Source: Blautia sp. (lineage in GTDB: Bacteria > Bacillota > Clostridia > Lachnospirales > Lachnospiraceae). From it: a DNA stretch of 37,681 nt. The stretch lies in assembly GCA_017475035.1 (NCBI GenBank), contig JAFVGK010000051.1, forward strand, positions 1 through 37,681, read 5' to 3'. Positions 6,597-30,656 of the stretch are shown here, piece by piece (positions within the stretch are counted from its first letter, which is position 1; every line of letters begins with the position of its first letter). The position numbers and the translations under genes are program-made. The notes under the pieces were generated by a model. That model was not told the DNA's origin. It saw only the letters and a program-made list of their open reading frames with translations, and ran no database searches.

Positions 6597-6690
6597 GGAG
6601 ACTGGTTTTGCTGTCTCGACGGTCCGGCTGCCGAAGCAATAAATCGTCATCCGAAGACATAGAGCCAACGTACAGAACCTTGTTATGTGA
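6597..6690 (+). repeat. Family C hairpin element, copy 1 (5' leader)
   Basis: Shares with the other copies a block GACTGGTTTTGCTG, a loop region, GCTGCCGAAGCA, then TCGTCATCCGAAGACAT and CAACGTACAGAAC, ending in TTGTTATGTGAGGAGG, which is the ribosome binding site of the next gene. The stem is imperfect in this copy. A second GGTTATGGGAGGAG lies just before the element, so GTTATGnGAGGAG flanks it as a direct repeat. Confidence 0.7.
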
Positions 6691-6702
6691 GGAGGGACAG
6701 GA

Positions 6703-7902
6703 TTGAGGGGAGACCGGAGAGAATTGTTTCGTTCGATGCGTCAGGAGCTGATGCTAAAGCTAAACGTATCCAAGGAGATTTCCGACCAGGAGATTTACGC
6801 AACCATTGATGAAATTGTCCTTAACAGGACAAGAGAAGGAGGCGCTTCGCTGAAAGACAGGGTTTCCCTTCGCCGGGATCTGTTTTTTTCTGTGAGAAAG
6901 CTGGATGTACTGCAGGAACTGATCGAGGATGAGTCAGTTACCGAGATTATGGTGAACGGCCCGGATACGATTTTTGTGGAAAAAGCAGGCAGGCTTTTTC
7001 GCTATGAGAAGAGCTTTTCTTCCAGGGAAAAGCTTGAAGACGTGATTCAACAGATTGTTGGCCGGTGCAACAGGGTCGTGAATGAGTCCATGCCTATCGT
7101 AGACGCCAGACTGGAAAACGGAGCCCGTGTGAATGTGGTAGTCGCTCCGGTTGCCTTAAACGGCCCGATCCTTACGATACGCCGGTTTCCGGATAAGCCA
7201 ATCACGATGGAAAAATTACTTTCACTGGGATCAATTACAAAGGAATGCGCAGATTTTCTGGAAAAACTGGTGCGGGCGAGGTATTCGATTGTGATCGGCG
7301 GTGGGACAGGCTCCGGAAAAACAACTTTTCTTGGCGCGTTGGCCGAATATATTCCAAAGGACGAAAGGATCATTACAATAGAGGATAATGCGGAACTGAA
7401 GCTCACCGGGATAGAAAATCTTGTACGGTTGGAAGCAAAGATGGGAAATATGAATCAGTCACAGGCAGTGACAATCCGGGATCTTATTAAATCAGCCCTT
7501 CGTATGCGCCCGGACCGGATTGTCGTCGGGGAATGCCGGGGCGGGGAGGCGGTGGATATGCTGCAGGCACTGAATACCGGCCATGACGGTTCCTTAAGCA
7601 CGGCCCATGCTAATTCCAGCCGTGATATGCTTTCGCGTCTGGAAACCATGGTTTTAATGGGAGTGGAGCTGCCTCTGGAAGCGATCCGGCGCCAGATTGC
7701 CTCTGGTGTGGATATTCTCATTCATTTGGGCAGAATGCGGGACAAATCCAGAAAACTGTTGGAGATATCTGAGATTGCCGGCTTTGAGGACGGGGAAGTC
7801 AGGATCCATCCTCTGTATTGCTGGGAAGAAGGAGAAGGCCTGTTGAAGAAGGGTGAACTATGGCATACGGAAAAGCTGATCAGGGCAGGATTGGCAAAGT
7901 AA
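6703..7902 (+). CDS. CpaF/TadA-family secretion ATPase (orphan)
   Basis: A 399-aa ATPase of the type II/IV secretion superfamily, CpaF branch, which powers assembly of Flp/Tad pili. Walker A is GGTGSGKT (200-207, Lys206). The Asp box IITIEDNAEL is at 223-232, Walker B RIVVGE at 272-277, and the His box TGHDGSLSTAHAN around 292-304. All key residues are present. The N-terminal domain (60-160) has the usual VTEIMVNGPD and IVDARLENGARVN motifs. The likely start is TTG 6703 with GAGGAGGG 8 nt upstream; ATG at 6736 is the alternative. No TadB, TadC, pilin, prepilin peptidase or RcpC gene is nearby; both neighbours are glycoside hydrolases. It therefore looks displaced from a tad locus or works with genes elsewhere. 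Confidence 0.9.
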   Translation: MRGDRRELFRSMRQELMLKLNVSKEISDQEIYATIDEIVLNRTREGGASLKDRVSLRRDLFFSVRKLDVLQELIEDESVTEIMVNGPDTIFVEKAGRLFRYEKSFSSREKLEDVIQQIVGRCNRVVNESMPIVDARLENGARVNVVVAPVALNGPILTIRRFPDKPITMEKLLSLGSITKECADFLEKLVRARYSIVIGGGTGSGKTTFLGALAEYIPKDERIITIEDNAELKLTGIENLVRLEAKMGNMNQSQAVTIRDLIKSALRMRPDRIVVGECRGGEAVDMLQALNTGHDGSLSTAHANSSRDMLSRLETMVLMGVELPLEAIRRQIASGVDILIHLGRMRDKSRKLLEISEIAGFEDGEVRIHPLYCWEEGEGLLKKGELWHTEKLIRAGLAK

Positions 7903-7940
7903 GATTCTGTATGGATGCCCAATCGAAGAGAGCCTCAGGA

Positions 7941-8030
7941 GAGACTGATTTTGCTGCTTCGGCATTTCATTTACCGAAGAAGCGGAAATTAAAATATTAA
8001 GTCAAAGCACAAAACTTCGTTATGCGAGGA
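7941..8030 (+). repeat. Family C hairpin element, copy 2 (5' leader)
   Basis: AGACTGATTTTGCTGCTTCGG, an AT-rich loop, then CCGAAGAAGCGGAAATT form the stem. The tail AAGTCAAAGCACAAAACTTCGTTATGCGAGGAGG (written here only to show the match: blocks AAGTCAA, ACTTCGTTATG) ends in the ribosome site of the GH67 gene. It fills most of the 136-bp gap between the CpaF-like and GH67 genes. No terminator is seen in this gap, so read-through is plausible. Confidence 0.7.
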
Positions 8031-8038
8031 GGAAAAAT

Positions 8039-9889
8039 ATGAGTACCTGGAAGGATAGGCGAGTCTGGCTTCGGGCGCTTACCTGGGATATTTCACAGGA
8101 GCCTGATACACCGCTGGAGACCGCCGAAGAAGAACTGAAGCGATTTATGGCTGTATACCAGGACGGCAGACCGGTTGTTCTGGAGACCATAGAGGAAATG
8201 GGGGAAAGCTACCGCCTGAGTCAGGAAGATAAAGAATATCATATCACAGGCGGCAGGACCGGGATCTTATATGGAGCGTATGCGCTGATCCAGGCATTGC
8301 TGTTGAAAAAATCGTTGCCGGAGGGGGTACAGGCCCCCTGTTATCCCCTGCGTATGCTCAACAGCTGGGACAATATGTCCGGAGAAATCGAGCGGGGATA
8401 TGCCGGCAGATCGCTCTGGTTTGAAGGTGATGCTTTTTCCTATGATCCGGCCCGAATTCGTCAGCTTGGACGGATGCTGGCCAGCGTCGGCGTGAATGTA
8501 ATAAGTCTGAATAATGTCAATGTCCATGCGCCTGCCCAGGGACTGACCGATCGATTACTGCCCGAGACGGCAAAGCTTGCAGCCCTTCTTCGCCCCTTTG
8601 GCATCCGTATCATGCTGTCTGTGGATTTTTCGCTTCCGCTCCAAAGAGGACTGGATACGGCGGATCCTCTGGATCCCAGGGTGGAGGAATGGTGGAAACA
8701 GCTGGCGGACGGTATCTGGGAGAAGATACCCGATCTGGCAGGCTTTCTGGTTAAAGCCGACAGCGAACACAGACCCGGACCGAATGCCTATGGACGTACC
8801 CATGCAGAAGGCGCGAATATGCTTGCCAGGGCAGTCGCGCCGCATGGGGGCGTATTGGTCTGGAGAGCCTTTGTATATAACTGCATGCAGGACTGGCGGG
8901 ATTCTTCGACAGACAGGCCTTGTGCCGCATATCATATCTATCACCCGTTGGACGGAACCTTCGAAGAAAATGTGATTCTGCAGGTGAAATATGGTCCGTT
9001 TGATTTTCAGGTGAGGGAGCCTCTGTCGCCTCTCTTTTTCGGCATGCCAAATACCCGTCTTGCTATGGAGCTCCAGCTTGCACAGGAATATACCGGGCAG
9101 CAGATCGATATTTTTGCCATGCCTCCGATGTGGAGGGAGCTGTTCGACGACCTGGGGAAAGAACGCATTCGCGCGGTGGCTGCGGTAAGCAACCTTGGCA
9201 GAGACGATTGCTGGACCGGACATCCGTTCGCGGCGCTGAATCTGTACGCGTTTGGCCGCTTTGGCTGGGATCCGGATACGGAAGTGGACGCATTGATCCG
9301 CGATTGGATCAGGCTGACCTATGATTTTTCCCAAATTGAAGATGAAGACGCACTTGCCCGCGTGCTTCAGGAAAGCCGCAAAACATACGAAAAGTACACG
9401 GCACCTCTGGGGCTGTGCTGGATGGTAAATCCGAACAACCATTATGGCCCAAGTCCTTATGGATATGAATTTCAGGCCTGGGGTACTTACAACCGGGCAG
9501 ACCGCAATGCTGTAGGGATAGACAGGACAGGAAACGGCACCGGTTATACAGATCAATATCCCGCCCCTCTTGCCGGGAAATACGCGGACACAGATACGTG
9601 TCCGGAAGAATTGCTGCTCTATTTTCACAGACTCCCATATGACTATCGCATGAAAGACGGCAGAACCCTGATACAAAGGATCTATGACGATCATTTTGAA
9701 GGCTGTGAGGAAGCGGAAAGAATGCAGGATATCCTGGAAAAACTGCCTTTAGGTGAAGATACCACGGAAGTCATCGAACGTATTCATCGTCAGACGGACA
9801 ACGCCAGGGAGTGGAGAGATGTGATCAATACCTTCTTCCACAGACTCAGCGGAGCAGAAGACGAGAAGAATCGAAAGATTTACGATTGA
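8039..9889 (+). CDS. aguA: GH67 alpha-glucuronidase
   Basis: A 616-aa intracellular enzyme that removes (4-O-methyl-)glucuronic acid from the end of xylo-oligosaccharides. The catalytic acid is E243 in GFLVKADSEHRPGP. The base pair is D322 (GPFDFQVREP) and E350 (ELQLAQEYTGQ). The distances D322-E243 (79) and E350-D322 (28) equal those recalled for the Geobacillus enzyme (E285, D364, E392). The motif NNHYGPSPYGYEFQAWGTYNRAD is also typical. There is no signal peptide. It is somewhat shorter than the ~680-residue family norm, with an abbreviated N-terminal domain. GAGGAGG precedes the ATG. It pairs logically with the GH39 enzyme upstream: side-chain removal, then xylose release. Confidence 0.93.
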   Translation: MSTWKDRRVWLRALTWDISQEPDTPLETAEEELKRFMAVYQDGRPVVLETIEEMGESYRLSQEDKEYHITGGRTGILYGAYALIQALLLKKSLPEGVQAPCYPLRMLNSWDNMSGEIERGYAGRSLWFEGDAFSYDPARIRQLGRMLASVGVNVISLNNVNVHAPAQGLTDRLLPETAKLAALLRPFGIRIMLSVDFSLPLQRGLDTADPLDPRVEEWWKQLADGIWEKIPDLAGFLVKADSEHRPGPNAYGRTHAEGANMLARAVAPHGGVLVWRAFVYNCMQDWRDSSTDRPCAAYHIYHPLDGTFEENVILQVKYGPFDFQVREPLSPLFFGMPNTRLAMELQLAQEYTGQQIDIFAMPPMWRELFDDLGKERIRAVAAVSNLGRDDCWTGHPFAALNLYAFGRFGWDPDTEVDALIRDWIRLTYDFSQIEDEDALARVLQESRKTYEKYTAPLGLCWMVNPNNHYGPSPYGYEFQAWGTYNRADRNAVGIDRTGNGTGYTDQYPAPLAGKYADTDTCPEELLLYFHRLPYDYRMKDGRTLIQRIYDDHFEGCEEAERMQDILEKLPLGEDTTEVIERIHRQTDNAREWRDVINTFFHRLSGAEDEKNRKIYD

Positions 9890-9934
9890 ATGAATGATTT
9901 ATACTCGATAACGGAAATGTCTGCCGATATGCTC

Positions 9935-10004
9935 AACGTATAACGAGTGAACGCGCTTCCCTTCCAATCCGAAAGGTTCAGTTAAATGCGTTCACGAGTA
10001 TAAA
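9935..10004. repeat. Family D inverted repeat, copy 1
   Basis: TATAACGAGTGAACGCG and TGCGTTCACGAGTATAA form the two arms, with about 28 nt between. The reverse complement of 33452-33515 has the same arms and a similar interior (CCGnnnnGAAAnGG). The arms pair through GTGAACGC/GCGTTCAC plus a TATA end. No ORF. Function unknown; it looks like a MITE- or REP-type element. Confidence 0.65.
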
Positions 10005-10080
10005 TGATTGATTTCTCCGGATTGTTTCATGCGAAGCGTTCTGACAATCTGCCGGAATTATGGGTATGATTCCGGCAGCA

Positions 10081-10124
10081 AAAGGCCAGGCAGAAATGAA
10101 CCTGATCATTTCTGCCTGGCCTTT
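10081..10124. terminator. Bidirectional terminator between convergent genes
   Basis: AAAGGCCAGGCAGAAATGA pairs with TCATTTCTGCCTGGCCTTT around a 6-nt loop. It ends both the GH67 gene (+) and the fumarylacetoacetase-family gene (-). The A and T tails are short. Confidence 0.8.
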
Positions 10125-10130
10125 ATTATG

Positions 10131-10292
10131 GCAGGGGCGCCAAAAGGAATTTTGTCACCTGAAGGTGACCGGCGCCCCGCCGGGGGCAGAGGGTACGGCT
10201 TCGCCTTCCTCTACCCTATTCCCGGAACCGCCTGAAGGAAGATGTCAGCTGTCGGTGACGGACAGCTCGGGAGAGCAGAAGCCTCTGCCCAT
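10131..10292. repeat. Family F double-hairpin elements, two tandem copies
   Basis: Copy 1 (10134-10215): GGGGCGCC ... TGTCACCTGAAGGTGACC ... GGCGCCCC is a nested hairpin, followed by a second one (GGCAGAGG, GGCTTCGCC, CCTCTACC). Copy 2 (10222-10290) repeats the order with changes: AACCGCCTGAAGGAAGATGT, CGGTGACGG, then GCAGAAGCCTCTGC. The block AAGGAAGATGTCACCTGTCG links it to 13972-13992. There is no ORF. It lies downstream of the bidirectional terminator, against the end of the minus-strand gene. Confidence 0.6.
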
Positions 10293-10322
10293 GTCGGGTA
10301 CGAATCCTGGAAAACAGTCATT

Positions 10323-11210
10323 TCAATTCCCGACCGTATTTTCCAGTCTGCCGATCCCTTCAATCTCGCAAGTGACCACATCCCCGCTTTTCAGAAAGCA
10401 AGGGGGGTTCATCCCCATACCTACTCCCGCAGGCGTTCCCGTAGCGATGATCGTCCCGGACATCAATGTCATTCCGGCAGAAAGCTCACAGATCGCGCCG
10501 GTGACAGTCTGGATCATGTATCTGGTATTGCTGTTCTGACGCGGCTGCCCATTCACGAAACAGCGGATCCCGAGATTTTCAGCATCCCCCAGTTCCTCCG
10601 GGGTGACGATGCACGGTCCGATCGGAGTAAAACCGTCCAGACTTTTCCCAAGATACCATTGTTTGTGCCTTGTCTGAAGATTTCTTGCGCTGACGTCATT
10701 GACAATCGTATAACCGAAAATACTGTCCCTTGCTGTCTGCTCATCAGCCCGGAACACATCCCTGCCCAATATTACGCCCAACTCGCACTCATAATCCAGA
10801 CTGTCCACCAGACCGGGATAGGAAGGAATGATGCCATCCGGATCCAAAGCACGGCTGACACGCTTGGAAAAATAAATCGTATATGGTCTCTCCCCGCCGA
10901 AAGCCTCTTCCGAAAAAGAACCGGCTTCCTTTGCATGTTCATTGTAATTGATCCCGAGGCAGATCATATCCTGTTTTGGCCGGGGAATCGGAGCGCATAG
11001 CTTTGCCGTTTCCAAAGAAAAAGACAATGCCTCGTTTTTTCTGCCCCGATCTGCCAGATCATTCTTCCAATCCTCCGACGCCATTTCGATGACCACATTC
11101 ATATCAGGCGCATCGATCCCCAGATCACATAGAAATAATCCGGTTCTGCCGCCGTCGAAAGAAACCGCCGGAAGCTCCCGATTGTCTTGCATGCATGTAT
11201 AAAATCTCAT
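10323..11210 (-). CDS. Fumarylacetoacetate hydrolase (FAH) family protein
   Basis: A 295-aa enzyme of the FAH family, which handles 2-keto acids by C-C cleavage, decarboxylation or dehydration with a divalent metal. The metal ligands are visible: E141 and E143 in DYECELGVILGR and D172 in VNDVSARN. The glycine-rich end GTIIATGTPAGVGMG is characteristic. The start at ATG 11210 follows GAAAGAAGGGCAG. It lies downstream of the beta-mannosidase gene (same strand), next to GH67 and a GH39. I infer a possible role as a sugar-acid (2-keto-3-deoxy acid) dehydratase or aldolase-like enzyme, because GH67 releases uronic acids. The family is too diverse to name the reaction, and aromatic-acid breakdown genes are absent. 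Confidence 0.85.
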   Translation of the reverse strand: MRFYTCMQDNRELPAVSFDGGRTGLFLCDLGIDAPDMNVVIEMASEDWKNDLADRGRKNEALSFSLETAKLCAPIPRPKQDMICLGINYNEHAKEAGSFSEEAFGGERPYTIYFSKRVSRALDPDGIIPSYPGLVDSLDYECELGVILGRDVFRADEQTARDSIFGYTIVNDVSARNLQTRHKQWYLGKSLDGFTPIGPCIVTPEELGDAENLGIRCFVNGQPRQNSNTRYMIQTVTGAICELSAGMTLMSGTIIATGTPAGVGMGMNPPCFLKSGDVVTCEIEGIGRLENTVGN

Positions 11211-11252
11211 GAATCTGCCCTTCTTTCCGGTTCATAAACTGTGACAGTAATA

Positions 11253-11348
11253 GTATGCACACGAATTATCTGCGGAATCATGCCGCTTGCAGCGGCGTAA
11301 ATTCGGCGCAGTAAACGAATCAAATGCAAGCATTTTATTCGTTTACCA
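11253..11348 (-). repeat. Family B element, copy 1 (upstream of FAH gene)
   Basis: Plus strand reads TATGCACACGAATT, TGCGGAATCATGCCGCTTG, then GCGGCGTAAATTCGGCGCAG, then TAAACGAATCAAATGC with the complementary ATTTTATTCGTTTA. Read on the minus strand this is a GTAAACGAAT hairpin followed by a second, GC-rich hairpin. It ends about 40 nt before the FAH start. A D-like fragment (ACTCGTGAACGC, 11362-11373) lies just outside. Confidence 0.7.
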
Positions 11349-11418
11349 TACTTGTTTTAAACTCGTGAACGCAATAAACTGCCTTCTCACATATCAACCT
11401 TTTCAGACAGCCCGGCTG

Positions 11419-13938: not shown

Positions 13939-13962
13939 GGGAACCCCCTATCATTTATCCCA

Positions 13963-14207: not shown

Positions 14208-15668
14208 TTACGGAATGATATCGCCGTCATCATAGTCATCGATGATATCATCATCATAGTCGTCATAGTCATCATAGTCATCAATGATATCGTCGTCATC
14301 ATAGTAATCATCGATGACATCGTCATCATCATTCGTGTCATCAATAATGTCATCATCATCTGTGTCATCGATGATGTCGTCATCATCATCCGTATCGTCG
14401 ATAATATCGTCTTCATCAGAGATGTTGTCTATGAAACGATCATAATCAAGGTCATCGGCAGAATGAGATGCCCAATATTCTGGATTTCCACACCAATAGG
14501 TATCAGTATCCGGCTCATAGTACATAGAACCGGCCATCGGAAGTAAGATCACGCCGTGTCTGTCTTCCCATTCATCACCCTTGTTGGCATAATGGAAAAT
14601 GGTTTTCCAGTCGCCTGCCTCATTATATACGGTACAGGAATAATCGATGGCTCCGTCATCACTGCTTCCGGCGTCATTGATATTCTGGGCAAACTCATCA
14701 TAATCAAAGTCATCAGCATCGTGCGTCTTCCAGAAATCCGGATCAATGTTCCAATAGGTATCATTTACAGGCTCATAAAGCAGGGCGCCTGCCATCGGCA
14801 GATACACAAGACCATGGCTGTCTGTATAAGTGTTTGTTCTGCTGTCAAAGAAGATGTTCATCCAGCTGCCGTCTTCCGCGTAAACGGTGACGGTATCATT
14901 GCCGTCAACAGGGATGGCATCCCTTGAGTTATCTGTTGTATTATTGGGCTTGGAAGCGTTGCCGGCCGGTGCTGCCGCCGGTGCCGCCGGCGCTGCCGAA
15001 GCTGTCTGGCCGCCAGGTCTGGACGTCGAAAGGAATGTGGAAGAAACATAAGCGTTCGTTCCGCCATATTGAATCTGGAACCAGCCATAATCGGCACCGT
15101 TTTTCAAAACACTGCCGGTAACCATGACTTGGTCGCCATAGTTCAGAGAACCGAGCAGAGCAGTGTCCGTAGAACAGCCGGCGCGTACATTCAGCTCATC
15201 GGCTACGACGTAATAGGTACCGCTCATCTCCTTAATGCCGAACTCAGAAACCTGAGGAGCAGCGTTTTTCTGAATTGCGGTTTTTGTGTCATACTTCAAA
15301 ACCTTGAGAGTCTGGATGGTTTCCATAAGAGACTGAAGGGTCTCCTTATTTGCTGCCAGTCCTTTTACGATGAAAACTTCATTCTGGGTGGAGACAAAGG
15401 CCTGACACACAGCCTGATAAGCGCTGTCTGCTACCTGTATTACGGGAAGGCTTTCGCCATTGCTGATATGGTCGACGGTAATGACATTCGTACCATCTGA
15501 AATCGCGAACCAATAATTCGGGTCAGCCATCTGGTGCCATGCATCACTGGGTGTCTCGATTGAGAGAACACCGTCATTTGTAGTAAGCGTTGCTGCGTTG
15601 ACAGCACAGGAAGCTGCAAGAATCATTGATCCGACAGCCAAACCACATAATAAAGATTTTAACTTCAT
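14208..15668 (-). CDS. Secreted SH3b-domain protein with duplicated module and Asp-rich tail
   Basis: A 486-aa exported protein of unknown function. Signal peptide 1-26 (cleavage near VNA-A); a Cys at 21 follows ILAAS, so a lipoprotein cannot be excluded. A bacterial SH3 (SH3_3) domain covers ~152-214, with LNVRAGCSTD and WFQIQYGG. An Ala/Pro linker (222-238) follows. Two copies of a ~74-residue module follow at 258-331 and 343-418. They share YxExGxW, HGxxxLPMAG, YEPxxDTYW and DxFWxxHxADDxDYDxF. The tail 419-486 is almost only Asp, Ile and Tyr (DDDIIDD repeats). ATG 15668 follows AAGAAGGAAG. It may bind cell wall or cations. Confidence 0.8.
   Translation of the reverse strand: MKLKSLLCGLAVGSMILAASCAVNAATLTTNDGVLSIETPSDAWHQMADPNYWFAISDGTNVITVDHISNGESLPVIQVADSAYQAVCQAFVSTQNEVFIVKGLAANKETLQSLMETIQTLKVLKYDTKTAIQKNAAPQVSEFGIKEMSGTYYVVADELNVRAGCSTDTALLGSLNYGDQVMVTGSVLKNGADYGWFQIQYGGTNAYVSSTFLSTSRPGGQTASAAPAAPAAAPAGNASKPNNTTDNSRDAIPVDGNDTVTVYAEDGSWMNIFFDSRTNTYTDSHGLVYLPMAGALLYEPVNDTYWNIDPDFWKTHDADDFDYDEFAQNINDAGSSDDGAIDYSCTVYNEAGDWKTIFHYANKGDEWEDRHGVILLPMAGSMYYEPDTDTYWCGNPEYWASHSADDLDYDRFIDNISDEDDIIDDTDDDDDIIDDTDDDDIIDDTNDDDDVIDDYYDDDDIIDDYDDYDDYDDDIIDDYDDGDIIP
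14215..14416. repeat. ATC/GTC microsatellite-like stretch coding the Asp-rich tail
   Basis: The end of the SH3b gene is built from short TCATCA/TCGTCA units (reading GAT, GAC and ATT/ATC codons in the gene). The units vary, so this is a degenerate low-complexity array rather than a clean microsatellite. Such DNA is prone to length change in frame, so tail length may differ between strains. Confidence 0.75.
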
Positions 15669-15759: not shown

Positions 15760-15852
15760 ACGCGGAATCAGATTTCTGCAGAAAAAAAGCAGCTTACGCG
15801 GCATAAATCCGGCGCGGTAAACGAATCAGAATGCAGGCATTCTGCCCGTATG
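15760..15852 (-). repeat. Family B element, copy 2 (upstream of SH3b gene)
   Basis: Plus strand CACGCGGAATCAGATTTCTG, then GCTTACGCGGCATAAATCCG, GGCGCGGTAAACGAATCAG, AATGCAGGCATTC. The GCCGCGTAAGC hairpin and the GTAAACGAAT arm are kept; the far arm is degraded to GCCCGTATG. It lies ~90 nt upstream of the SH3b gene start, same orientation as copies 1, 3 and 5. Confidence 0.65.
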
Positions 15853-23312: not shown

Positions 23313-23357
23313 AGGCAGCTGAGTCAGGAGTTCCATCTCCGGATTCAGCTGCCTTTT
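23313..23357 (+). terminator. Terminator after the first importer operon
   Basis: AGGCAGCTGAGTC pairs with GATTCAGCTGCCT (one G-T pair), with a 16-nt loop, followed by TTTTG. Ends the 21491-23287 permease operon. Confidence 0.75.
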
Positions 23358-23375
23358 GCCGCCGGAATCATAATC

Positions 23376-23404
23376 TTGTATTTCCAGACGAAATGAATTA
23401 TAAT
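23376..23404 (+). promoter_or_regulatory. Promoter of the flavin reductase-rubredoxin gene
   Basis: TTGTAT (23376-23381), 17-nt spacer, TATAAT (23399-23404). A perfect -10 with a half-matching -35. Transcription near 23411 gives a ~195-nt leader. The leader has a GGTTCAT/ATGAACC hairpin (23413-23440) and then element C (23505-23590). Confidence 0.65.
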
Positions 23405-23504
23405 CTTACAAAGGTTCATTTAGCTACGGATGGATGAACCTGAGTATAAATGAGGACAATGACAACCCCTGTTTTAGGAAACAACAGATACTTTTGTTGC
23501 CAAT

Positions 23505-23590
23505 GAGACTGGTTCTGCCTTCGACAGTCCGACTGCCGAAGGCAGAACCGTCATCCGAAAACATTGAGTCAACATACAATACTTCGTTAT
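23505..23590 (+). repeat. Family C hairpin element, copy 3 (5' leader)
   Basis: The clearest copy. GGTTCTGCCTTCG-a-CAG, loop TCCGA, CTG-c-CGAAGGCAGAACC (23511-23549): a 16-bp stem with one mismatch. Tail CGTCATCCGAAAACATTGAG, TCAACATACAATACTTCG, TTATG leads straight into the ribosome site AGGAGG of the next gene. The GCC/GGC in the stem replaces GCT/AGC of other copies while staying paired. Confidence 0.75.
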
Positions 23591-23606
23591 GGTAGGAGGT
23601 GTCAAT

Positions 23607-24224
23607 GTGGATAAAAAAGCAATGTACAGACTGACATATGGTCTTTATGTTCTTACCTCTGGTTTAGATGGAAAGGACAACGGATGCATCATTAACACGG
23701 CGGTTCAGGTAAGCTCTGATCCTAACAGAATCAGTATAGCGGTTAATAAGGCAAATTATACGCATGATCTGATTGCTCAGAACCGGAAGTTTACGATTTC
23801 TTCGATCAGCCAGGAAGCAACCTTCGATCTGTTCAGGCGTTTTGGATTTCAATCCGGCAGAAACGTCGATAAATTTGCCGGGTTTTCATCTTATGAAAGA
23901 GGCGCAAATGGCTGCCTGTATATTACGGAAGGCACAAATGCCTATATAGCCGGCTGGGTGGAACAGGCGATCGATCTTGGCAGTCACACATTATTTATTT
24001 CGCCTGTGACGGATATGGAAGTGCTTTCTTCTTCGCCTTCTATTTCTTATGATTATTATCAGAACAATATCAAACCGAAGCCTCAGCCGGTTGGCCAGAC
24101 GCCGGAAGGAAAAGTCATCTGGAGGTGCCGGATCTGCGGGTATGAGTATGTGGGAGAACAGATCCCGGAGGATTTCATCTGTCCGATCTGCAAACACCCG
24201 GCAGCTGATTTTGAGAAAGTCTGA
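23607..24224 (+). CDS. Flavin reductase-rubredoxin fusion protein
   Basis: A 205-aa redox protein. The N-terminal ~155 residues match the flavin reductase-like FMN-binding split barrel (YRLTYGLYVLTSG, CIINTAVQVSSDPNRISIAVN, FTISSISQEATFDLFRRFGF). The last ~38 residues are a rubredoxin: WRCRICGYEY ... FICPICKHP gives two CxxC pairs for one Fe. This arrangement matches high-molecular-weight rubredoxin (Hrb) of anaerobes, which passes electrons from NAD(P)H via FMN to oxygen- or NO-reducing flavodiiron proteins. GTG 23607 was chosen as start because AGGAGG lies 7 nt upstream; the ATG at 23589 would place that site in the coding region. No partner flavodiiron gene is nearby. Confidence 0.88.
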   Translation: MDKKAMYRLTYGLYVLTSGLDGKDNGCIINTAVQVSSDPNRISIAVNKANYTHDLIAQNRKFTISSISQEATFDLFRRFGFQSGRNVDKFAGFSSYERGANGCLYITEGTNAYIAGWVEQAIDLGSHTLFISPVTDMEVLSSSPSISYDYYQNNIKPKPQPVGQTPEGKVIWRCRICGYEYVGEQIPEDFICPICKHPAADFEKV

Positions 24225-24253
24225 AAGACAGGGTCTTTTATAGTATGGCAGGA

Positions 24254-24337
24254 ATATACTGCGCCATCATGCTGCGTGCAGCGGCATAAATCCGGCGCAG
24301 CAAACGAATCAAAATGAAAGCATTTTATTCGTTATTA
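24254..24337 (-). repeat. Family B element, copy 4
   Basis: Plus strand ATACTGCGCCATCATGCTGC, GTGCAGCGGCATAAATCCG, GCGCAGCAAACGAATC, AAAATGAAAGCATTTTATTCG. Same orientation as the other copies, but here it lies after a plus-strand gene (ends 24224) rather than upstream of a minus-strand gene. Confidence 0.65.
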
Positions 24338-24359
24338 CTGGTCTTCTGTCCGGCTGCAT

Positions 24360-24439
24360 CTGTCAAAAAGGTCACATAGCCCGCTATGTCTGCTTTTTTG
24401 ACAGGGACATCGGAACAAAAATCCTCAGCGGCTTGTTCC
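24360..24439. other. Two adjacent hairpins upstream of the DUF362 gene
   Basis: Hairpin 1 (24360-24404): CTGTCAAAAA with TTTTTTGACAG, and an inner ACATAGC/GCTATGT stem. Hairpin 2 (24412-24439): GGAACAA with TTGTTCC. The rest of the 24225-24507 gap holds element B copy 4 and a possible promoter. Neither hairpin has a clear T tail outside the stem, so the role is unknown. Confidence 0.5.
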
Positions 24440-24470
24440 AATATTTTTATCCGGCTCCTGAAAAGCAGGA

Positions 24471-24498
24471 TTGACAAGATGTATTATATTTTTATAAG
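24471..24498 (+). promoter_or_regulatory. Possible promoter very close to the DUF362 start
   Basis: TTGACA (24471-24476), 16-nt spacer, TATAAG (24493-24498). The boxes are good, but the -10 overlaps the AAGGAG ribosome site (24496-24501). Transcription would start near 24505 and give an almost leaderless mRNA. Either this promoter is not used or the gene is leaderless. Confidence 0.3.
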
Positions 24499-24507
24499 GA
24501 GTCAAAC

Positions 24508-25629
24508 GTGGAAAAATCAAAAGTATATTTTACTGATTTCAGGACAAAAATTGATGTTCCCATTACGGAAAAACTAAAAAAACTCTGTAAAAAAGCCGGC
24601 ATCGGCGAGATTGATATGGAAAACAAATTTGTTGCCATAAAAATGCATTTTGGGGAATTGGGAAATCTTGCGTATCTGCGGCCAAATTATGCCAGAGCTG
24701 TGGTTGATCTGGTGAAGGAAAAAGGAGGCCTTCCTTTTCTGACTGACTGCAATACCCTTTATCCGGGCAGCAGGAAAAATGCCCTGGAGCATCTGGACTG
24801 CGCGAATATCAATGGCTTCAATCCCATCACCACCGGCTGCCAGGTGATTATTGCTGATGGTCTTCGCGGCACGGATGACGTTGCGGTGCCTGTTCCCGGC
24901 GCGGAATATTGCCCGGAAGCCCTGATCGGTAGAGCAATCATGGATGCGGATGTGTTTATTTCTCTCTCTCATTTCAAAGGACATGAAGCGACCGGTTTTG
25001 GAGGAGCGCTGAAGAATATCGGAATGGGTTGTGGAAGCCGAACGGGAAAGATGCAGCAGCATAAAGACGGAAAGCCGGAGGTCAATCCGGATCTTTGTGT
25101 CTGTTGTAAGCGTTGTGCAAAAGAGTGCGGATCTGACGCCATTACGTATGAAACGGGGAAGGCCGTAATTCATCAGGATATCTGTAAAGGGTGCGGCAGA
25201 TGTATCGGAGCCTGTACCTTCGACGCGATTTCGAACGAAAACGAAGACGCTAATGAAATGCTGGGACGCAAGATCGCTGAGTATTCCATGGCTGTATGTC
25301 ATAACAGACCGTGTTTCCATATCACGTTGGTGATGGATATTTCTCCGAATTGCGACTGTCATGGAGAGAATGACGCGCCGATCCTTCCGGATGTCGGTAT
25401 GTTTGCATCCTTTGATCCGGTTGCCCTTGATCAGGCCTGCGTGGATGCCTGCCTCAGATCAGATCCCATGCCGAACAGCCAGCTTTCCGATAACCTGAGC
25501 CGTCCGGGATGGCATCACCACCATGACCATTTTCTTGACAGCAATCCGAATATCCGCTGGAAAGAGACGCTGGAGCATGCCGAAAAGCTGGGACTTGGCA
25601 GCAGGGAATATGAACTGATCGTAATGTAA
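24508..25629 (+). CDS. DUF362 / double [4Fe-4S] ferredoxin protein
   Basis: A 373-aa iron-sulfur protein. DUF362 motifs run from the N-terminus (FVAIKMHFGELGNLAYLRP, DADVFISLSHFKGHEATGFG, ALKNIGMGCGSRTGK). Two ferredoxin clusters follow near residues 195-240: CVCCKRCAKEC and CKGCGRCIGAC, each CxxCxxCxxxC for one [4Fe-4S]. The C-terminal part (CFHITLVMDISPNCDCHGEND, FASFDPVALDQACVD) continues DUF362. No signal peptide or membrane segment. GTG 24508 with AAGGAG upstream. The biochemical role of this common anaerobe protein is unknown. It sits beside a rubredoxin fusion, which hints at a shared redox role. Confidence 0.9.
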   Translation: MEKSKVYFTDFRTKIDVPITEKLKKLCKKAGIGEIDMENKFVAIKMHFGELGNLAYLRPNYARAVVDLVKEKGGLPFLTDCNTLYPGSRKNALEHLDCANINGFNPITTGCQVIIADGLRGTDDVAVPVPGAEYCPEALIGRAIMDADVFISLSHFKGHEATGFGGALKNIGMGCGSRTGKMQQHKDGKPEVNPDLCVCCKRCAKECGSDAITYETGKAVIHQDICKGCGRCIGACTFDAISNENEDANEMLGRKIAEYSMAVCHNRPCFHITLVMDISPNCDCHGENDAPILPDVGMFASFDPVALDQACVDACLRSDPMPNSQLSDNLSRPGWHHHHDHFLDSNPNIRWKETLEHAEKLGLGSREYELIVM

Positions 25630-25773
25630 AGAATGATGTCGTGCATTTTGCAACAGTCAGGATACCTGCCGTTTTATTACAATCCGGCTGTTATTTTTCG
25701 TCAGGGCAAATGAGACATTGATCAGGGAGAATTACAAGCTGTGGAGCCGGACGGAATGTTTTTTTGAAACTAT

Positions 25774-25823
25774 AAAAAGGCCGTTTTCCTTAGTTGCCGT
25801 ACAACAAGGAAAACGGCCTTTTT
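25774..25823. terminator. Bidirectional terminator between DUF362 and Ig-like genes
   Basis: AAAAAGGCCGTTTTCCTT pairs with AAGGAAAACGGCCTTTTT around a 14-nt loop; A5 and T5 tails serve both strands. A TATGGCAGGGGCG block follows, as also seen after the terminator at 10081. Confidence 0.9.
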
Positions 25824-25915
25824 ATGGCAGGGGCGACGCAATGTAATGTTATACGCCTACCGGTGAATGCCGCTCCGCAGGAGGGGCAGAGGCTGCAAGG
25901 GCTTCCCTCTGAATT
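25824..25915. repeat. Degenerate family F element
   Basis: TATGGCAGGGGCG after a terminator, then CTACCGGTGAATGCCGCTCC and GGGGCAGAGG ... CCCTCTG. The order matches copy 1 at 10128-10215, but the GTCACC/GGTGAC stem is lost. The stretch 25630-25773 before the terminator shows nothing recognisable. Confidence 0.4.
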
Positions 25916-25953
25916 TTTCCCGAGCAGCTAAAAAGGAAAGCCGGTGAAACGGA

Positions 25954-27078
25954 TTATGAGGCTTCAACGATAGGCGCCATTCCTTTTGCCCCGAAGCTGA
26001 ACCAGAGGAAGATGGGATTCTCTTCGATAGAAAAGCTGAACACATCGCCTTTGCTAATTTTTGCCTTCACGTATTTTCCCTCGGACCATATCATAGGATA
26101 AAGATAGATTTTCTTGGAACCGATTGTCATTTTTACGGTTACATAAGGAGAAGTAGTCCAGTTATTTGACTCTTTCGCTTTGCGTATCGGGAATTTTATT
26201 TCTTTTAACGTGATCGTCTTATCGGAATCGGTCAGTTTTGCGCTGGTGTCAAAAGCATAAGCCCATTTGACGGTAGATTTCTGAATTGCCTTATCCAGCT
26301 CCAGAATAATATAATTGTTGGCGGCGGAAGCCGTGATCCCTACTGTCTGATAGCGTTCACGGAATGAATTGGTGGAAGCGGATGCACTGCCGACAACGCC
26401 TGTGAACGGATAATACTCCATGAGATAATACCCGATCCGGGCTGCCATAGGAACAGGATAAAGATTATTTACGGGATATTCTCTAAGACATCCTGTCATT
26501 TGTATAGAATCTTTATATTTATTGAACAGCTTCAAATAAGAACGAATGTTAGCCTGTCTTTTTTCGGCGTTTGCTACGGTTAATTTTGCTGCCGCCGTAT
26601 TCAAAGCCTTATAGGTTGTAGTGGATCCTAATGCGCCGGCTTCGACAACGGAAAGGTGAATCTGAACATCGCCGTTATAACGTGTTTTGTAAGTGATGAC
26701 ACAATTTCCGGGTGTCTTTGTGGTCACAAATCCCGTGTATGGATTGACAGAAGCTACTTTGTATTTTGATGTTGAAAAGATCGCGGTCTGACCTTCCTTG
26801 TTCCTGCTGACAGCATATCTGGAAAATGTGACTGCGGACGGAGTACTTAAGAGGGAATAATTCATGCCTTTTCTTGAACTGATAAAGTCTCCTGCGTAGA
26901 ATTTCTGATTTACTTCTACAGTGAGAGGCTTGCTGCTCGGAAAAACACAGATGCCGCTTCCTTCTCCGCTAAAAACATAAGCGTTTGCTTCGCTTTGAGG
27001 CATGAAAGTCACAAATATAGGCAAAAGGAATAAAAGTGTAAGAAAAACAGCAAGGTTCCCGTTTCTGAGCTTTCTCAT
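25954..27078 (-). CDS. Secreted protein with bacterial Ig-like (Big2) region
   Basis: A 374-aa exported protein of unknown role. The signal peptide is MRKLRNGNLAVFLTLLFLLP..., cleavage likely after SEANA. Residues ~45-150 have the flow of a Big2-type Ig-like repeat: KYKVASVNPYTGFVTTKTPG then NCVITYKTRYNGDVQIHLSVVE. The remainder (~150-374) is rich in Tyr, Ser, Thr and Lys and matches no family I recognise. ATG 27078 follows AAAGGAGTG; a GTG at 27087 overlaps that site. It is a single gene with a bidirectional terminator downstream. It could be a cell-surface or adhesion protein. Confidence 0.75.
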   Translation of the reverse strand: MRKLRNGNLAVFLTLLFLLPIFVTFMPQSEANAYVFSGEGSGICVFPSSKPLTVEVNQKFYAGDFISSRKGMNYSLLSTPSAVTFSRYAVSRNKEGQTAIFSTSKYKVASVNPYTGFVTTKTPGNCVITYKTRYNGDVQIHLSVVEAGALGSTTTYKALNTAAAKLTVANAEKRQANIRSYLKLFNKYKDSIQMTGCLREYPVNNLYPVPMAARIGYYLMEYYPFTGVVGSASASTNSFRERYQTVGITASAANNYIILELDKAIQKSTVKWAYAFDTSAKLTDSDKTITLKEIKFPIRKAKESNNWTTSPYVTVKMTIGSKKIYLYPMIWSEGKYVKAKISKGDVFSFSIEENPIFLWFSFGAKGMAPIVEAS

Positions 27079-27141
27079 GGAAGTCACTCCTTTCTATACT
27101 GGTATCTCTTGTCTTCAGCGTCAGATCATCATAACACATAT

Positions 27142-27170
27142 ATTATATGGATACTGTCATGATCATAAAC
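27142..27170 (-). promoter_or_regulatory. Candidate promoter of the Ig-like protein gene
   Basis: On the minus strand: GTTTAT (27170-27165), 17-nt spacer, TATAAT (27147-27142). The -10 is perfect; the -35 is weak. Leader ~57 nt. Confidence 0.4.
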
Positions 27171-27253
27171 AGTATACCATAAACAGGGGCGATACGCCAG
27201 ATATATCTGAAAAAGGTCAGGGACAGATCGGGTTTTCCTTTGAAAGACTCAGT

Positions 27254-27293
27254 AAAAAAGGAGAGGCGCTTCCAAAAGAAACGCTTCTCCTCC
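27254..27293 (-). terminator. Terminator of the second importer operon
   Basis: Minus strand: GGAGAAGCGTTTC, loop TTTTG, GAAGCGCCTCTCC, then T6 (27259-27254). Two G-T type pairs. It ends transcription from the 30547-27453 operon. Confidence 0.8.
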
Positions 27294-27309
27294 TTAAACG
27301 CAGTTTTGC

Positions 27310-27392
27310 AGTCTGACGCTATGTCTTCGGATGACGATTTTGGTGCTTCGGCAGTTGAACTGACGAAGCACCAAAATCATTCTGCCATAGGA
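27310..27392 (-). repeat. Family C hairpin element, copy 4 (3' region of operon)
   Basis: Stem GATTTTGGTGCTTCG and CGAAGCACCAAAATC (27336-27378), with an inner CAGTT/AACTG; only one mismatch. On the minus strand the tail is CGTCATCCGAAGACATAGCG then TCAGACTGCAAAACTG, cut short before the ribosome-site part. The GGTG/CACC in the stem replaces GCTG/CAGC of other copies, again paired. Here it lies between the SBP stop and the terminator, not before a gene. Confidence 0.75.
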
Positions 27393-27452
27393 AGCATAGA
27401 GCAAAAAAAGAAAAAACCGAACGAATCATTTCCCAGGCAGATCTGCCGCCGG

Positions 27453-28706
27453 TCAGGCTGCTCCGTCTATTGCGGCCCAGTTCTCTTCGATTGCGGCGCA
27501 AGTGGCATCCTTATCAGCCGTGCCTGCAATGTAATCCTGCATCAGTTCACCGAATTTCTGCCACCAGCTGTCGGTAGAATAGCATACGCCAAGCGGGGCG
27601 CTGCCTTTTTCTTCTTCCAGAGCGCTGCCCTGCCTGATTACCTCAAAATTGCTCTCCGCATCAGTGGCAACCGGAGGAACGACGCCGGCTACATCCGTGA
27701 ACCAGGCAATGCCGTAATCGGATGTATACCACCAGTTGACAAAATCAAGGGTCGCATCCAGCACAGCGGAATCAGCCGCGACATGAAGCGCCTGATCGGA
27801 ACCGGAGATAATCCGGCACTGAGCCGGGTCATTAGTGACAGGATATCCGCTGAAGCCTACCTGAAGGTCCGGATCGATGGCAAGAGCGTCTGCCTCAATC
27901 CAGGCGCCTTGACCGAGTACCATTGCGGCAGTGCCGCCGCCATAAGCAGCGAGCTCACCGGAGAGGTCGGTCTCGAGAGGCTTGTCATCACCATATTTTA
28001 CGCCAAGGTCGATCATGTCGAAGAAATTATTATAAATCTCGGGAAGATCGGCGATCTTGACTTCGCCCTTTTCAAACTGGCCAACCAACTCGGCAACCGT
28101 TGTGCCGGCGCCGTCAGCGGCGGCTGCAAGATAATGCTGGAAAATATGTTTGAATACCCACCATTCCGCATAACCTGTTGTGAACGGCTTGTAACCCGCT
28201 TCGGAAATCGCCTCGCAAGCGGCGGTAAGCTCGTCTACAGTTTCCGGGACGGTAAGGCCAAGCTCATCGAAGATACCCTTGTTATATACAAGACCAAAAT
28301 AATTGCCCTTGATGGCGATGCCATAAAGGCCGCCGCCTTCTTCCGTGGAAGCCATCGCGGATGCGACGGAAGGAAGCATGGTCTCTTCCAGCGGCTGTCC
28401 GGTGAGGTCATAGGAATATTCGCGGTAGACATCGATTTCTTTGCCGGAAGTGGAAGAAAAGATATCCGGAACCTCTCCCGAATTCAGCTTCGCCTTCAGC
28501 AAAGTGGGATAATCGTTCTGAGTGGTCTCATAGTTGATCGTGACATCCGGGGCGACTTCCGCATACGCATCAATCAGCTCGGAGATGGCATCGGCGTATT
28601 CAGGCTGGCTGATGAACATATAGATCTCCTCAGCGGCTGCCGGAACGGCGATCAGGCTTGCCGTCATGGCTGCACTCAAGATGATGCCAAGAATCTTTTT
28701 CTTCAT
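27453..28706 (-). CDS. ABC transporter sugar-binding protein (family 1 SBP)
   Basis: A 417-aa exported binding protein. Signal peptide MKKKILGIILSAAMTASLIA, likely cleavage at PAAA-EE; there is no Cys in the signal region, so it is not a lipoprotein. The mature part (EIYMFISQPEYADAISELID, YEVAPDVTINYET-like region, LLKAKLNSGEVPDIFSS) fits CUT1 binding proteins. AAAGGAGGAA precedes the ATG. It is last in its operon: permease, permease, SBP, the reverse of the order at 20043-23287. A 103-nt gap separates it from the permease. Substrate unknown. Confidence 0.9.
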   Translation of the reverse strand: MKKKILGIILSAAMTASLIAVPAAAEEIYMFISQPEYADAISELIDAYAEVAPDVTINYETTQNDYPTLLKAKLNSGEVPDIFSSTSGKEIDVYREYSYDLTGQPLEETMLPSVASAMASTEEGGGLYGIAIKGNYFGLVYNKGIFDELGLTVPETVDELTAACEAISEAGYKPFTTGYAEWWVFKHIFQHYLAAAADGAGTTVAELVGQFEKGEVKIADLPEIYNNFFDMIDLGVKYGDDKPLETDLSGELAAYGGGTAAMVLGQGAWIEADALAIDPDLQVGFSGYPVTNDPAQCRIISGSDQALHVAADSAVLDATLDFVNWWYTSDYGIAWFTDVAGVVPPVATDAESNFEVIRQGSALEEEKGSAPLGVCYSTDSWWQKFGELMQDYIAGTADKDATCAAIEENWAAIDGAA

Positions 28707-28809
28707 GTTGGTTCCTCCTTTGATGAAAAAATGGTTTTTGGGTATTAAAAGAATTCAGGCGATAAAACTGTCTGAATCATAAAAAATGAAATCAGCGGTC
28801 AGGATCCGG

Positions 28810-29643
28810 CTATCCTTTTACGGCTCCGGCTACGACCCCTTCCACAATATATTTCTGGAGCAGGATAAAGATGATAATGGAAGGAGTAACCGCAAGGACC
28901 ATCGCAGCCATGGCATAATGCCATTTTGTATTCATCTGTCCGACAAAGGTATAAGCTGCCAGAACCAGAGTTTTTGTCTCATTGCTGGAATTTACCATCA
29001 AGAGCGGAAGAAGGAAATCGTTCCAGATCCACATGACATCAAGAACGATAACGGTAACGGTCACGGATTTCAGCAGAGGAAAGATCACCTGGAAAAAAAT
29101 CGTGTGGGTACTTGCTCCGTCGATCATGGCGCTTTCATCCAATTCTCTGGGGATCGTTTTCATAAAGTTATAAAAAATAAAGGTGGCCATGGGGATGCCG
29201 AAACCCCAGTACTGGATGCCAAGGCCGAGCTTGCTGCCGGATAAGTGGATGACATTCATGGCTTTGAGCAAGGTGATCATGATGGTCTGGAAGGGGATCA
29301 GCATAGGCGTTGTGATCAGCAGGTGGGCAAATCTGGTGTAGCGTGTTTTTCTCCGATCCATCATATATGCCGCCATCGAGCTGAAGAGGATTATGCCTGC
29401 AATACCGGTGACCGTGATGATAACGTTGTTTAAAAAGAGCTTAAAATACCTGATCTTTTTAATGACATATGTATAGTTCTCCAGCTCAAGGCGGGAAGGG
29501 AGAGCAATGGCGTTCTTTACGATCTCACCAAAGGGCTTGAAGGAATTCATATACATCAAAAAGACAGGGTAAATATAAATCAGCGCAAGCAAAAATAAAA
29601 GAATAATCAGAATCCATTTGCGCAGAGCTTTTTTTCTTTGCAT
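28810..29643 (-). CDS. ABC sugar permease, MalG type
   Basis: A 277-aa membrane permease. The first helix is WILIILLFLLALIYIYPVFLMYMNSFK, and the docking loop reads ESAMIDGASTHTIFFQVIFP (Ser in place of the first Ala). The end EGVVAGAVKG is typical of this family. ATG 29643 was chosen because AAAGGAGGAAACC lies just before it; the frame is open for 11 more codons upstream, but that would embed the site. Only 16 nt separate it from the partner permease gene. Confidence 0.92.
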   Translation of the reverse strand: MQRKKALRKWILIILLFLLALIYIYPVFLMYMNSFKPFGEIVKNAIALPSRLELENYTYVIKKIRYFKLFLNNVIITVTGIAGIILFSSMAAYMMDRRKTRYTRFAHLLITTPMLIPFQTIMITLLKAMNVIHLSGSKLGLGIQYWGFGIPMATFIFYNFMKTIPRELDESAMIDGASTHTIFFQVIFPLLKSVTVTVIVLDVMWIWNDFLLPLLMVNSSNETKTLVLAAYTFVGQMNTKWHYAMAAMVLAVTPSIIIFILLQKYIVEGVVAGAVKG

Positions 29644-29659
29644 GGGGTTTCCTCCTTTC

Positions 29660-30547
29660 TCACAGCTCGACTTCACGGCTGGAGAAGAATCTCAGCACGA
29701 TCTGGGTCAGAATGAGGACAACGAGGAAATAAATGATGGACTCGGCGGATCCCAATCCGTAATTGTTATTCTGGAAAGCTTCCTTATAAATCTGCAAAGT
29801 GACGCTGTAGGTCGAAGATCCGGGACCGCCTTTTGTCAAAGCAAGGATAATATCAAAAACCTTCAGGCCGTTCGTCAGGGACATAAAAATACAGGTAGTA
29901 ATGGAAGGCCCCAACAGCGGAAGAGTGACCCGGAAAAAAGCCTGTCGTCCTGTCGCCCCGTCTACGGTGGCCGCTTCCAGGACATCCTTAGGGACAGCTT
30001 GAAGACCGGCGATGTAAAGAACGATATAAAAGCCCAGAGACTGCCAGACGCCAACCAGGAGAACGGCATAGAAAGCCAGTTTCGGATTGCCGAGCCAGGA
30101 AAGGTTCCAGACGCCCCATCCGGTCATATCCGAAAGACGGGCGAAACCCTGGGTAAAGATGAACTTCCAGATAAATCCGACGATGGTCATGCTCATGATA
30201 TAAGGAATGAAGAAGATTCCTCTCATGAAATTGGCTAATTTAAATTTCTTTGTCAGGCAGACTGCCAGAAACAGAGCGATCACGTTGGAAAAGACGATAA
30301 AGCCAAAGGTGTAACGGATCGTAAACCATAAAGAACTGGCAAAGTCGCCGCTGGAAGCAAAAATCGTACGGAAATTACGTAAACCGACAAAGACAGCGTT
30401 TTTGGCAATGCCATTCCATTCGGTCAGGGAATAATATCCGCTCATGACAAAGGGAATGTACATCATGACCGTTACCAGCAAAATCGCCGGTATCGTGTAA
30501 AGCAGGGTGTCGAAAAACTCCTTTCGTTTTCGGTTCGAACCAGACAT
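29660..30547 (-). CDS. ABC sugar permease, MalF/UgpA type
   Basis: A 295-aa membrane permease, first gene of the second importer operon. Helices include LLYTIPAILLVTVMMYIPFVM and FMRGIFFIPYIMSMTIVGFIW; the docking loop is EAATVDGATGRQAFFRVTLP then LLGP. ATG 30547 follows AGGAGG closely; upstream open frame to 30832 is the leader with element C and the promoter, not protein. The same strand carries promoter 30729-30756 and element C copy 5 ahead of it. Confidence 0.92.
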   Translation of the reverse strand: MSGSNRKRKEFFDTLLYTIPAILLVTVMMYIPFVMSGYYSLTEWNGIAKNAVFVGLRNFRTIFASSGDFASSLWFTIRYTFGFIVFSNVIALFLAVCLTKKFKLANFMRGIFFIPYIMSMTIVGFIWKFIFTQGFARLSDMTGWGVWNLSWLGNPKLAFYAVLLVGVWQSLGFYIVLYIAGLQAVPKDVLEAATVDGATGRQAFFRVTLPLLGPSITTCIFMSLTNGLKVFDIILALTKGGPGSSTYSVTLQIYKEAFQNNNYGLGSAESIIYFLVVLILTQIVLRFFSSREVEL

Positions 30548-30572
30548 AAAAAACCTCCTGCCAAAATGAAAT

Positions 30573-30656
30573 TCTGTACGTTGACTCAATGTCTTCGGAA
30601 GACGATTTTGTTGTTTCGGCAACTTTAGATGCTTAAGCAGCAAAACCAGCCTCCTT
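30573..30656 (-). repeat. Family C hairpin element, copy 5 (5' leader)
   Basis: Minus-strand sense: GGCTGGTTTTGCTGCTTAAG, loop, GTTGCCGAAACAACAAAATC (stem 30604-30647, imperfect), then GTCTTCCGAAGACATTGAG and TCAACGTACAGAATTTCATT, ending at the AGGAGG of the permease gene. Same order and position as copies 1-3. Confidence 0.7.

Follow-up and report, generated by a model that had tools for sequence, protein, structure and literature searches.

The 37,681-nt contig JAFVGK010000051.1 of Blautia sp. (assembly GCA_017475035.1), hereafter the window, carries five copies of a non-coding hairpin element of about 97 nt. This is probably a small mobile element, non-autonomous, that lands preferentially in the Shine–Dalgarno sequence (SD; GGAG on the coding strand) and rebuilds that site at its own 3′ end, a reading to which we give a probability of roughly two in three. 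We infer the movement by insertion into existing SDs, and the chemistry discussed below is a guess. In the proposed event, a native site ..A/GGAG/G.. would become ..A/GGAG-AC..hairpin..tail hairpin..GA-GGAG/G..; the upstream GGAG would then be buried in the first stem (GGAGAC paired with GTC-A-TCC), while its downstream counterpart, which lies at the usual SD spacing from the start codon, would act as the new SD. Since the gene would thus still be translatable, the insertion would be tolerated. The initial annotation of this DNA had considered either a mobile hairpin that supplies the ribosome-binding site itself or a shared post-transcriptional regulator of unrelated genes; the former idea is supported by the present analysis and made more precise, in that the element apparently lands in an SD and rebuilds it.

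The position of the element relative to genes carries much of this reading. In the window, the terminal GGAGG of four of the five copies (1, 2, 3 and 5) lies 6–7 nt 5′ of a start codon, and Pfam matches agree with the earlier assignment of these leaders to a secretion ATPase, an alpha-glucuronidase, a flavin reductase and a sugar permease. On a larger scale, 313 distinct elements were collected with sequence anchors under 17 assembly labels (G-handles and accession prefixes, some of which may denote one assembly twice), after elements identical in loop and tail had been left out, together with 5 of the 225 rows of one anchor collection (leaving 220). The start codon of an open frame follows the SD by 6–25 nt in 206 of the 313 (ATG 179, GTG 18, TTG 9), as compared with 1203 of 3812 ordinary GGAGG sites in the same DNA (723 of 3812 for ATG), so that the preference for leaders, without which the annotation's proposal would have failed, holds well beyond the window. 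A further 46 elements run straight into another element at a common GGAG, and five reach a contig end. The 169 elements of the genome that contains the window (own genome) comprise 108 with a start, 27 in tandem, 25 with none and 9 with no SD. Start codons most often lie 11–17 nt from the first G of the SD. The downstream genes are unrelated, often start just after an upstream stop codon and include folD, pyrH, argH, cmk, purE, dxs, hisH and galK (names read from the sequences, with no family search). Variants were also encountered under label G319: L428, L430, L431 and L439 have an extra hairpin in the tail, and L433, L436 and L437 are apparently tail-only copies that keep the SD end before an ATG.

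The boundaries of the element point in the same direction. The left-flank analysis covered 296 of the 313 elements (17 unused), from which 49 tandem copies were set aside; in the remaining 247, classed as isolated but still holding some nested copies, the base preceding GGAGAC is A at a frequency of 0.70 and T at 0.05, and the base before that A at 0.49 and T at 0.07, close to the left flank of 84 native SDs (A 0.62/T 0.13 and A 0.54/T 0.08, respectively). The base after the terminal GGAG is G at 0.54 and A at 0.31 in 238 elements, near the values of 194 native sites (0.47 and 0.26); conservation therefore stops at the terminal GGAG. The element is thus bounded by a GGAG on either side, and the sequence outside each of them is like the corresponding half of an SD. 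These ends are direct, not inverted, copies of GGAG, terminal inverted repeats are absent, and a GGAG duplicated at the target would be indistinguishable from one carried by the element. The 20 tandem pairs of the own genome join different subfamilies in 12 cases, the same subfamily in four, with four unclear. Since 12 of 20 joints lie between different subfamilies, simple duplication does not give them; one element therefore seems to have used the SD of another as its landing site. The window holds an example of such nesting, copy 1 standing behind an older tail (Table 1).

Alternatively, a hairpin comparable to miniature inverted-repeat transposable elements (MITEs) or repetitive extragenic palindromic (REP) sequences might insert approximately at random in intergenic DNA, bringing its own SD, with only those copies retained that serve a gene. 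High copy number, patchy distribution, decay of the copies and the existence of some copies with no gene behind them would all be expected, and the SD position itself could also arise from selection after random insertion. Such an explanation would not, however, account for the likeness of the left flank, too, to half of an SD, namely the left one, nor for nested copies that join at GGAG even across subfamilies, nor for the lack of a further SD-like 4-mer between element and start in 188 of 206 cases. We consider it unlikely, though deserving of serious attention.

Comparison of orthologous leaders is consistent with insertion. An ortholog of folD was detected in 48 of the 63 other genomes of the genus, and one of purE in 62. 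For each of the two genes 30 loci, the own included, were fetched: the element was not seen by eye in any of the 29 purE leaders (230 nt each) from genomes other than the own, and the five folD leaders that were read (L169–L171, L172 and L192) have a plain SD. In the own genome feoB is preceded by a family-i element (the family of copy 1), in G053 by one of a different family and in CADBTC by none; tpiA has an element in the own genome and none in OMVU. The leaders of an obg-like gene hold elements of different subfamilies in G053 (L073) and CAMOSC (L314), which suggests repeated independent insertion; the names of these three genes were read from the sequences. Both feoB and the obg-like gene are thus occupied in two genomes by different subfamilies, and the orthologous leaders read in relatives mostly have an ordinary SD. 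When all flanks were compared with one another, orthologs free of the element emerged (feoB, tpiA), though none gave a breakpoint exact to the base. G214 has one full copy only, and a search for empty sites in its genus matched G214 alone.

Within the own genome, a metagenome-assembled genome (MAG) of 5.08 Mb in 200 contigs, the element occupies at least 234 distinct places on 58 contigs. This figure is the union of local hits and two covariance-model searches, R1, built from 33 copies rather than the five originally suggested, and R2, a cross-family model, with the best 150 candidates scored in each; the real copy number is probably higher. All 150 scored candidates pass with R1 (worst E 1.1e-10; best 150 of 2807 first-look candidates) as well as with R2, and a 100-nt query gave 40 strong full-length places (40 of 287 candidates scored), so that the family is far above chance. 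Relatives were also matched: R1 in at least 7 of 64 genomes of the genus and in 2 of 41 genomes of a mixed set, and R2 in at least 4 of 397 genomes across the bacterial family, the own genome being included each time. The values 7/64 and 4/397 are lower bounds because the best candidates alone were scored (99, 63 and 10 per genome in the wider scans, the 10 being those scored with R2). An exact-pattern search of species genomes matched at least 94 stretches; the 80 listed come from MAGs titled Clostridia, Clostridiales, Lachnospiraceae or Blautia sp., several of which name goat, sheep or cattle gut, and an earlier family-i exact pattern gave no match in the same set. Identical flanks equate G052 with RGIG5706, G067 with RUG12824, G050 with RGIG513 and G053 with RGIG5651, three of which are titled Blautia sp.; the RUG series is of rumen origin. 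No match was obtained in viral contigs with the exact pattern, and blastn with one family-i copy gave none in plasmids or phages. The distribution is patchy. Full-text searches of a collection from which most subscription papers are missing gave no description of such an element.

The predicted fold is one long bulged hairpin consisting of GGA-GAC, a single unpaired base, (T/G)ATTTTG, an inner hairpin that varies, a bulge of 2 nt, CAAAAT(A/C), GTC, a bulged A and TCC. Among 35 representatives, GGA and GAC are both paired around the bulged A in 27, GAC pairs with GTC in 32 and the 2-nt 3′ bulge is present in 22. The first G is conserved in 31 of 34 representatives and GAG is invariant, in a set picked with anchors that contain GGAGAC. 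Folding as single-stranded DNA gave z-scores of −4.4 to −5.2 in five of five cases. A second hairpin just 5′ of the SD is genome-specific (CAAAAC/GTTTTG, TAGAAC/GTTCTA, TTATAAC/GTTATAG or GTGAAC/GTTCAC), and at least five Watson–Crick pairs are found there in 131 of 300 elements, versus 22 ± 5 after shuffling. Across families (34 representatives), 94.3% of the cells of the main stem are paired and 64 are double-changed, compared with 21.2 ± 4.4 expected (0 of 500 shuffles, which leave relatedness in place) and with at most 10 in slid structures; a count of the pairs that contain at least one double change stands out less (7 versus 5.5; 60 of 500 shuffles). The changing pairs are mostly at anchor-free positions, namely columns 8–61 and 15–54 and the inner stem. 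In more distant relatives from two other genera (L393 and L394) GGAGCC faces GGC-A-TCC; here both arms have again changed together, and the bulged A is retained. The bulged stem GGAGAC/GTC-A-TCC is thus conserved, and its free positions covary between families. Pairing of the 5′ arm with the tail (b/b′) is weaker across families, with 72.0% of cells paired.

The picture within the own genome is different. The initial annotation had taken paired stem changes among the window copies as a sign of a fold under selection. Those of copies 3 and 4 are real, though not typical of the family, whereas copy 2 has a mismatch (GCTGCTTCG versus CGAAGAAGC) and no paired change; this copy also lacks the CGTCATCCGAAGACAT block. 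Copies 2, 4 and 5 have fuller stems of a kind that most copies lack: of 123 family-i copies whose arm is recognisable, 21 have 3 nt where 90 have 1 nt, the 3-nt variant filling the bulge seen in other families. In 144 family-i copies, taken from 170 hits (bits ≥60 and a recognisable 3′ arm; expectation from independent columns), compensated double changes numbered 6 against 6.7 expected in the inner stem, 3 against 6.5 in the arm–tail pairing and 14 against 10.8 in the last hairpin. The outer stem gave a modest excess (31 against 19.9), of which subfamilies inside the sample may be the cause, and had more unpaired changes (242) than wobble-type ones (127). The 33-copy alignment likewise gave a small excess (90.8% versus 89.5% paired; 12 versus 6.3 double-changed cells, 14 of 500 shuffles). 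Hairpin-templated correction can, moreover, yield paired changes without selection. Accordingly, the argument from paired changes stands between families and fails within the genome for most of the stem, where changes are largely not compensatory: the structure changes in step between spreading lineages and is mostly not mended in resident copies. Covariation between genomes, with little within them, fits a mobile element whose fold plays a part in copying better than a regulatory RNA maintained gene by gene.

These data bear directly on the second possibility raised by the annotation, that of a host cis-regulatory RNA, a common structured leader controlling the translation of unrelated genes and kept by selection in each leader. 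The location in leaders and the hairpin just 5′ of the SD would suit such a role, as would the outer-stem excess and the arm–tail pairing, an alternative to the main stem: over 312 of the 313 elements (73 cluster representatives), the own partner of b/b′ scores 6.14 as compared with 5.21 ± 0.15 for swapped partners (0 of 5000), and its double-changed cells number 21 versus 11.0 (0 of 500), a count that includes one stray pair in the structure string. Nevertheless, the other two measures of b/b′ do not rise above shuffles (pairs with a double change 3 versus 3.1; further pair types 6 versus 10.0), and b/b′ is not present in the CAMOXU family. The lack of compensation in the inner stem and in b/b′ within the genome, the predominance of unpaired changes in the outer stem, the unrelated housekeeping genes downstream and the 29 purE leaders devoid of the element also argue against it. 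A cis-regulatory class would be conserved before orthologs with its fold kept by selection; here most of the orthologous leaders read have no element and the copies do not keep their stems. We regard such a regulator as improbable, and the corresponding part of the annotation is not upheld.

A third explanation would have the element spread at the RNA level, by reverse transcription from mRNA and insertion at SDs, like a tiny retroelement or an intron relic. The sense orientation wherever a gene follows, the strong fold and a target that is a feature of mRNA might be cited in its favour. Selection on the RNA strand, however, would be expected to leave an excess of wobble-preserving changes, which was not seen (247 versus 216 at paired positions; 328 versus 153 at unpaired ones), and Rfam gave no match over the gathering score in the window and none at the copies up to E = 5. 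An RNA route therefore seems very improbable, and a group II intron relic in particular was discarded, no intron RNA family being matched in that Rfam search.

As to the chemistry of a mobile element landing in SDs, transposition of single-stranded DNA, catalysed in trans by an IS200/IS605-like HUH/Y1 enzyme, would fit, because a hairpin lies near each end, inverted repeats are absent and the apparent site is a fixed 4-nt sequence. The invariant ATCC beside the stem might be the guide that pairs with the GGAG target. We favour this route by analogy, and only tentatively. That the element represents a class of mobile elements that would target the ribosome-binding site as single-stranded GGAG through an ATCC guide, and whose 3′ end would regenerate a working SD and thereby permit near-neutral insertion, the occupation of hundreds of gene leaders and nesting in its own SDs, is a possibility that we rate a little higher, though still short of even.

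Besides selection after random insertion, several observations weigh against landing in and rebuilding of SDs. An SD with no start behind it is found in 43 of the 313 elements and no SD at all in 13, and in 18 of the 206 elements with a start a further SD-like 4-mer lies between SD and start. Nested copies remain among the 247 of the left-flank profile (L057 and L064, by eye), the collecting anchors contain most of the outer stem, so that its conservation is partly by construction, and the outer stem has its modest within-genome excess of compensated changes. No exact empty site was found, the best full-length orthologs in the genus being 78% (FolD) and 81% (PurE) identical; the breakpoints rest on flank composition because the orthologs are too diverged for base-exact comparison. 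For the enzyme, Y1 matches in the own genome amount to one fragment at a contig edge, with no element-like ends by eye; Y1 is matched in 5 of 7 carrier and 35 of 57 non-carrier genomes, hence without association; and the four loci with long Y1 open reading frames (ORFs) that were inspected (L252, L253, L254 and L256) have no paired element ends. A Y1 transposase as mobiliser was accordingly set aside and is kept as an analogy only. Mutual comparison of the 400-nt flanks of 170 copies revealed other repeats, with no longer, gene-carrying version among the 45 best non-element pairs. Separately, the ORFs of L256 (G067) and L254 (G068) are Y1/RAYT-like and lie beside short repeats (GGTGCCTGACACCGTTA; GGTTCCCTGGTTCA), looking like REP-type systems unrelated to the hairpin element.

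The element resembles several known systems. Like REPs and REPINs with their REP-associated tyrosine transposases (RAYTs), it is a short palindrome interrupted by a bulge, carries a fixed tetranucleotide at the foot, is non-autonomous and intergenic and occurs in hundreds of copies; the imperfect palindrome with a bulge is found in 27 of 35 folds and the copy number is high (at least 234 places). A conserved bulge is likewise a feature of REPs. The element differs in its length of about 97 nt with a second hairpin, versus 20–40 nt for REPs, and in its tag, GGAG instead of the GTAG described in PMC3733652. According to the same paper REPs are mostly downstream of coding regions, unlike the present element, which lies at the SD upstream of genes and for which no linked RAYT was found at the four long Y1 loci. 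With IS200/IS605 elements and their non-autonomous derivatives it shares the lack of terminal inverted repeats, a subterminal hairpin near each end and, apparently, a short fixed sequence directly 5′, here a constant GGAG with SD-like flanks; IS200-type enzymes read structures near the ends (PMC6006769) and IS608 chooses its tetranucleotide target by base pairing (PMC5934647). The differences are GGAG at both ends, the lack of a transposase gene and a putative guide at the 3′ foot of the stem. In IS608 the guide occupies another position. CGTC-tagged palindromic repeats, which are reported to have no dedicated transposase (PMC3733652), recall the CGTC behind the hairpin in family i, but this motif is not constant in the element (AGTC or GGC in other families), which is also longer and situated at SDs. 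Finally, MITEs such as ERIC/RU-1, RU-2 and the Neisseria 155-bp repeat are small non-autonomous mobile repeats affecting mRNAs (PMC2229807), whereas the element has a fixed SD location and, unlike a classical MITE, no terminal inverted repeats.

The five copies lie where the annotation had placed them, with refined coordinates (Table 1). Two gene starts differ from the ORF list: for the flavin reductase the list takes an in-frame ATG within copy 3 instead of the GTG at 23607, and the sugar permease ORF runs upstream through copy 5 to 30832. Copy 4 is the exception to the start-codon rule among the five; the next long frame on the same strand starts only after another 200 nt or so. Directly behind the copy, at 27250–27285 (− strand), the sequence reads as a terminator-like hairpin and a T-run.

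Table 1. Hairpin copies and adjoining genes in the window
Feature	Position	Strand	Remarks
5′-truncated older copy, tail only	6545–6600	+	Directly upstream of copy 1, common GGAG joint; match to query 44–99
Copy 1, family i	6597–6695	+	Terminal SD GGAGG 6691–6695; start TTG 6703
T2SSE-type secretion ATPase gene, downstream of copy 1	6703–7902	+	Pfam PF00437, E 3.5e-58
Copy 2, degenerate, middle block lost	7940–8032	+	SD 8028–8032; ATG 8039
GH67 alpha-glucuronidase gene, downstream of copy 2	8039–9889	+	Pfam PF07488, PF07477
Copy 3	23504–23599	+	SD 23595–23599; start GTG 23607
Flavin reductase gene, downstream of copy 3	23607–24224	+	Pfam PF01613
Copy 4, no start codon behind	27286–27385	−	Terminator-like hairpin and T-run behind
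Copy 5	30554–30654	−	SD 30554–30558; ATG 30547
ABC sugar permease gene, downstream of copy 5	29660–30547	−	Pfam PF00528

Other repeats are present in the window. Sub-threshold Rfam matches to Clostridiales-1 (34.1 and 28.7 bits; gathering score 48) lie away from the copies, at 1–139, 4753–4917 and 4627–4717/37545–37635, and overlap or adjoin further long repeats. A second repeat family (..CGGCG(T)AAATTCGGCGCAGTAAACGAATCAAAATGCAGGCATTTT..) is found at 11260–11360, 15766–15849, 24249–24350 and 33106–33190 and also adjoins hairpin elements elsewhere in the genome. A 51-nt tandem repeat in nine registers (32194–32805) lies within the gene of a DUF5067 protein, and low-complexity GATGAT/CATCAT repeats occupy overlapping open frames at 14214–14403.

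If our reading is correct, the element would spare its host by landing where it can rebuild the site that it interrupts. The SD stands before very many genes, and the element could therefore spread without silencing them; more than 100 SDs of a single genome would then be the ends of a mobile element. This would help to explain the strong differences between the leaders of orthologous genes in these Lachnospiraceae. Insertions could then also be directed to gene starts with a naturally occurring system. More generally, before a repeat is declared a regulatory RNA, covariation among the copies of one genome must be told apart from that between species.

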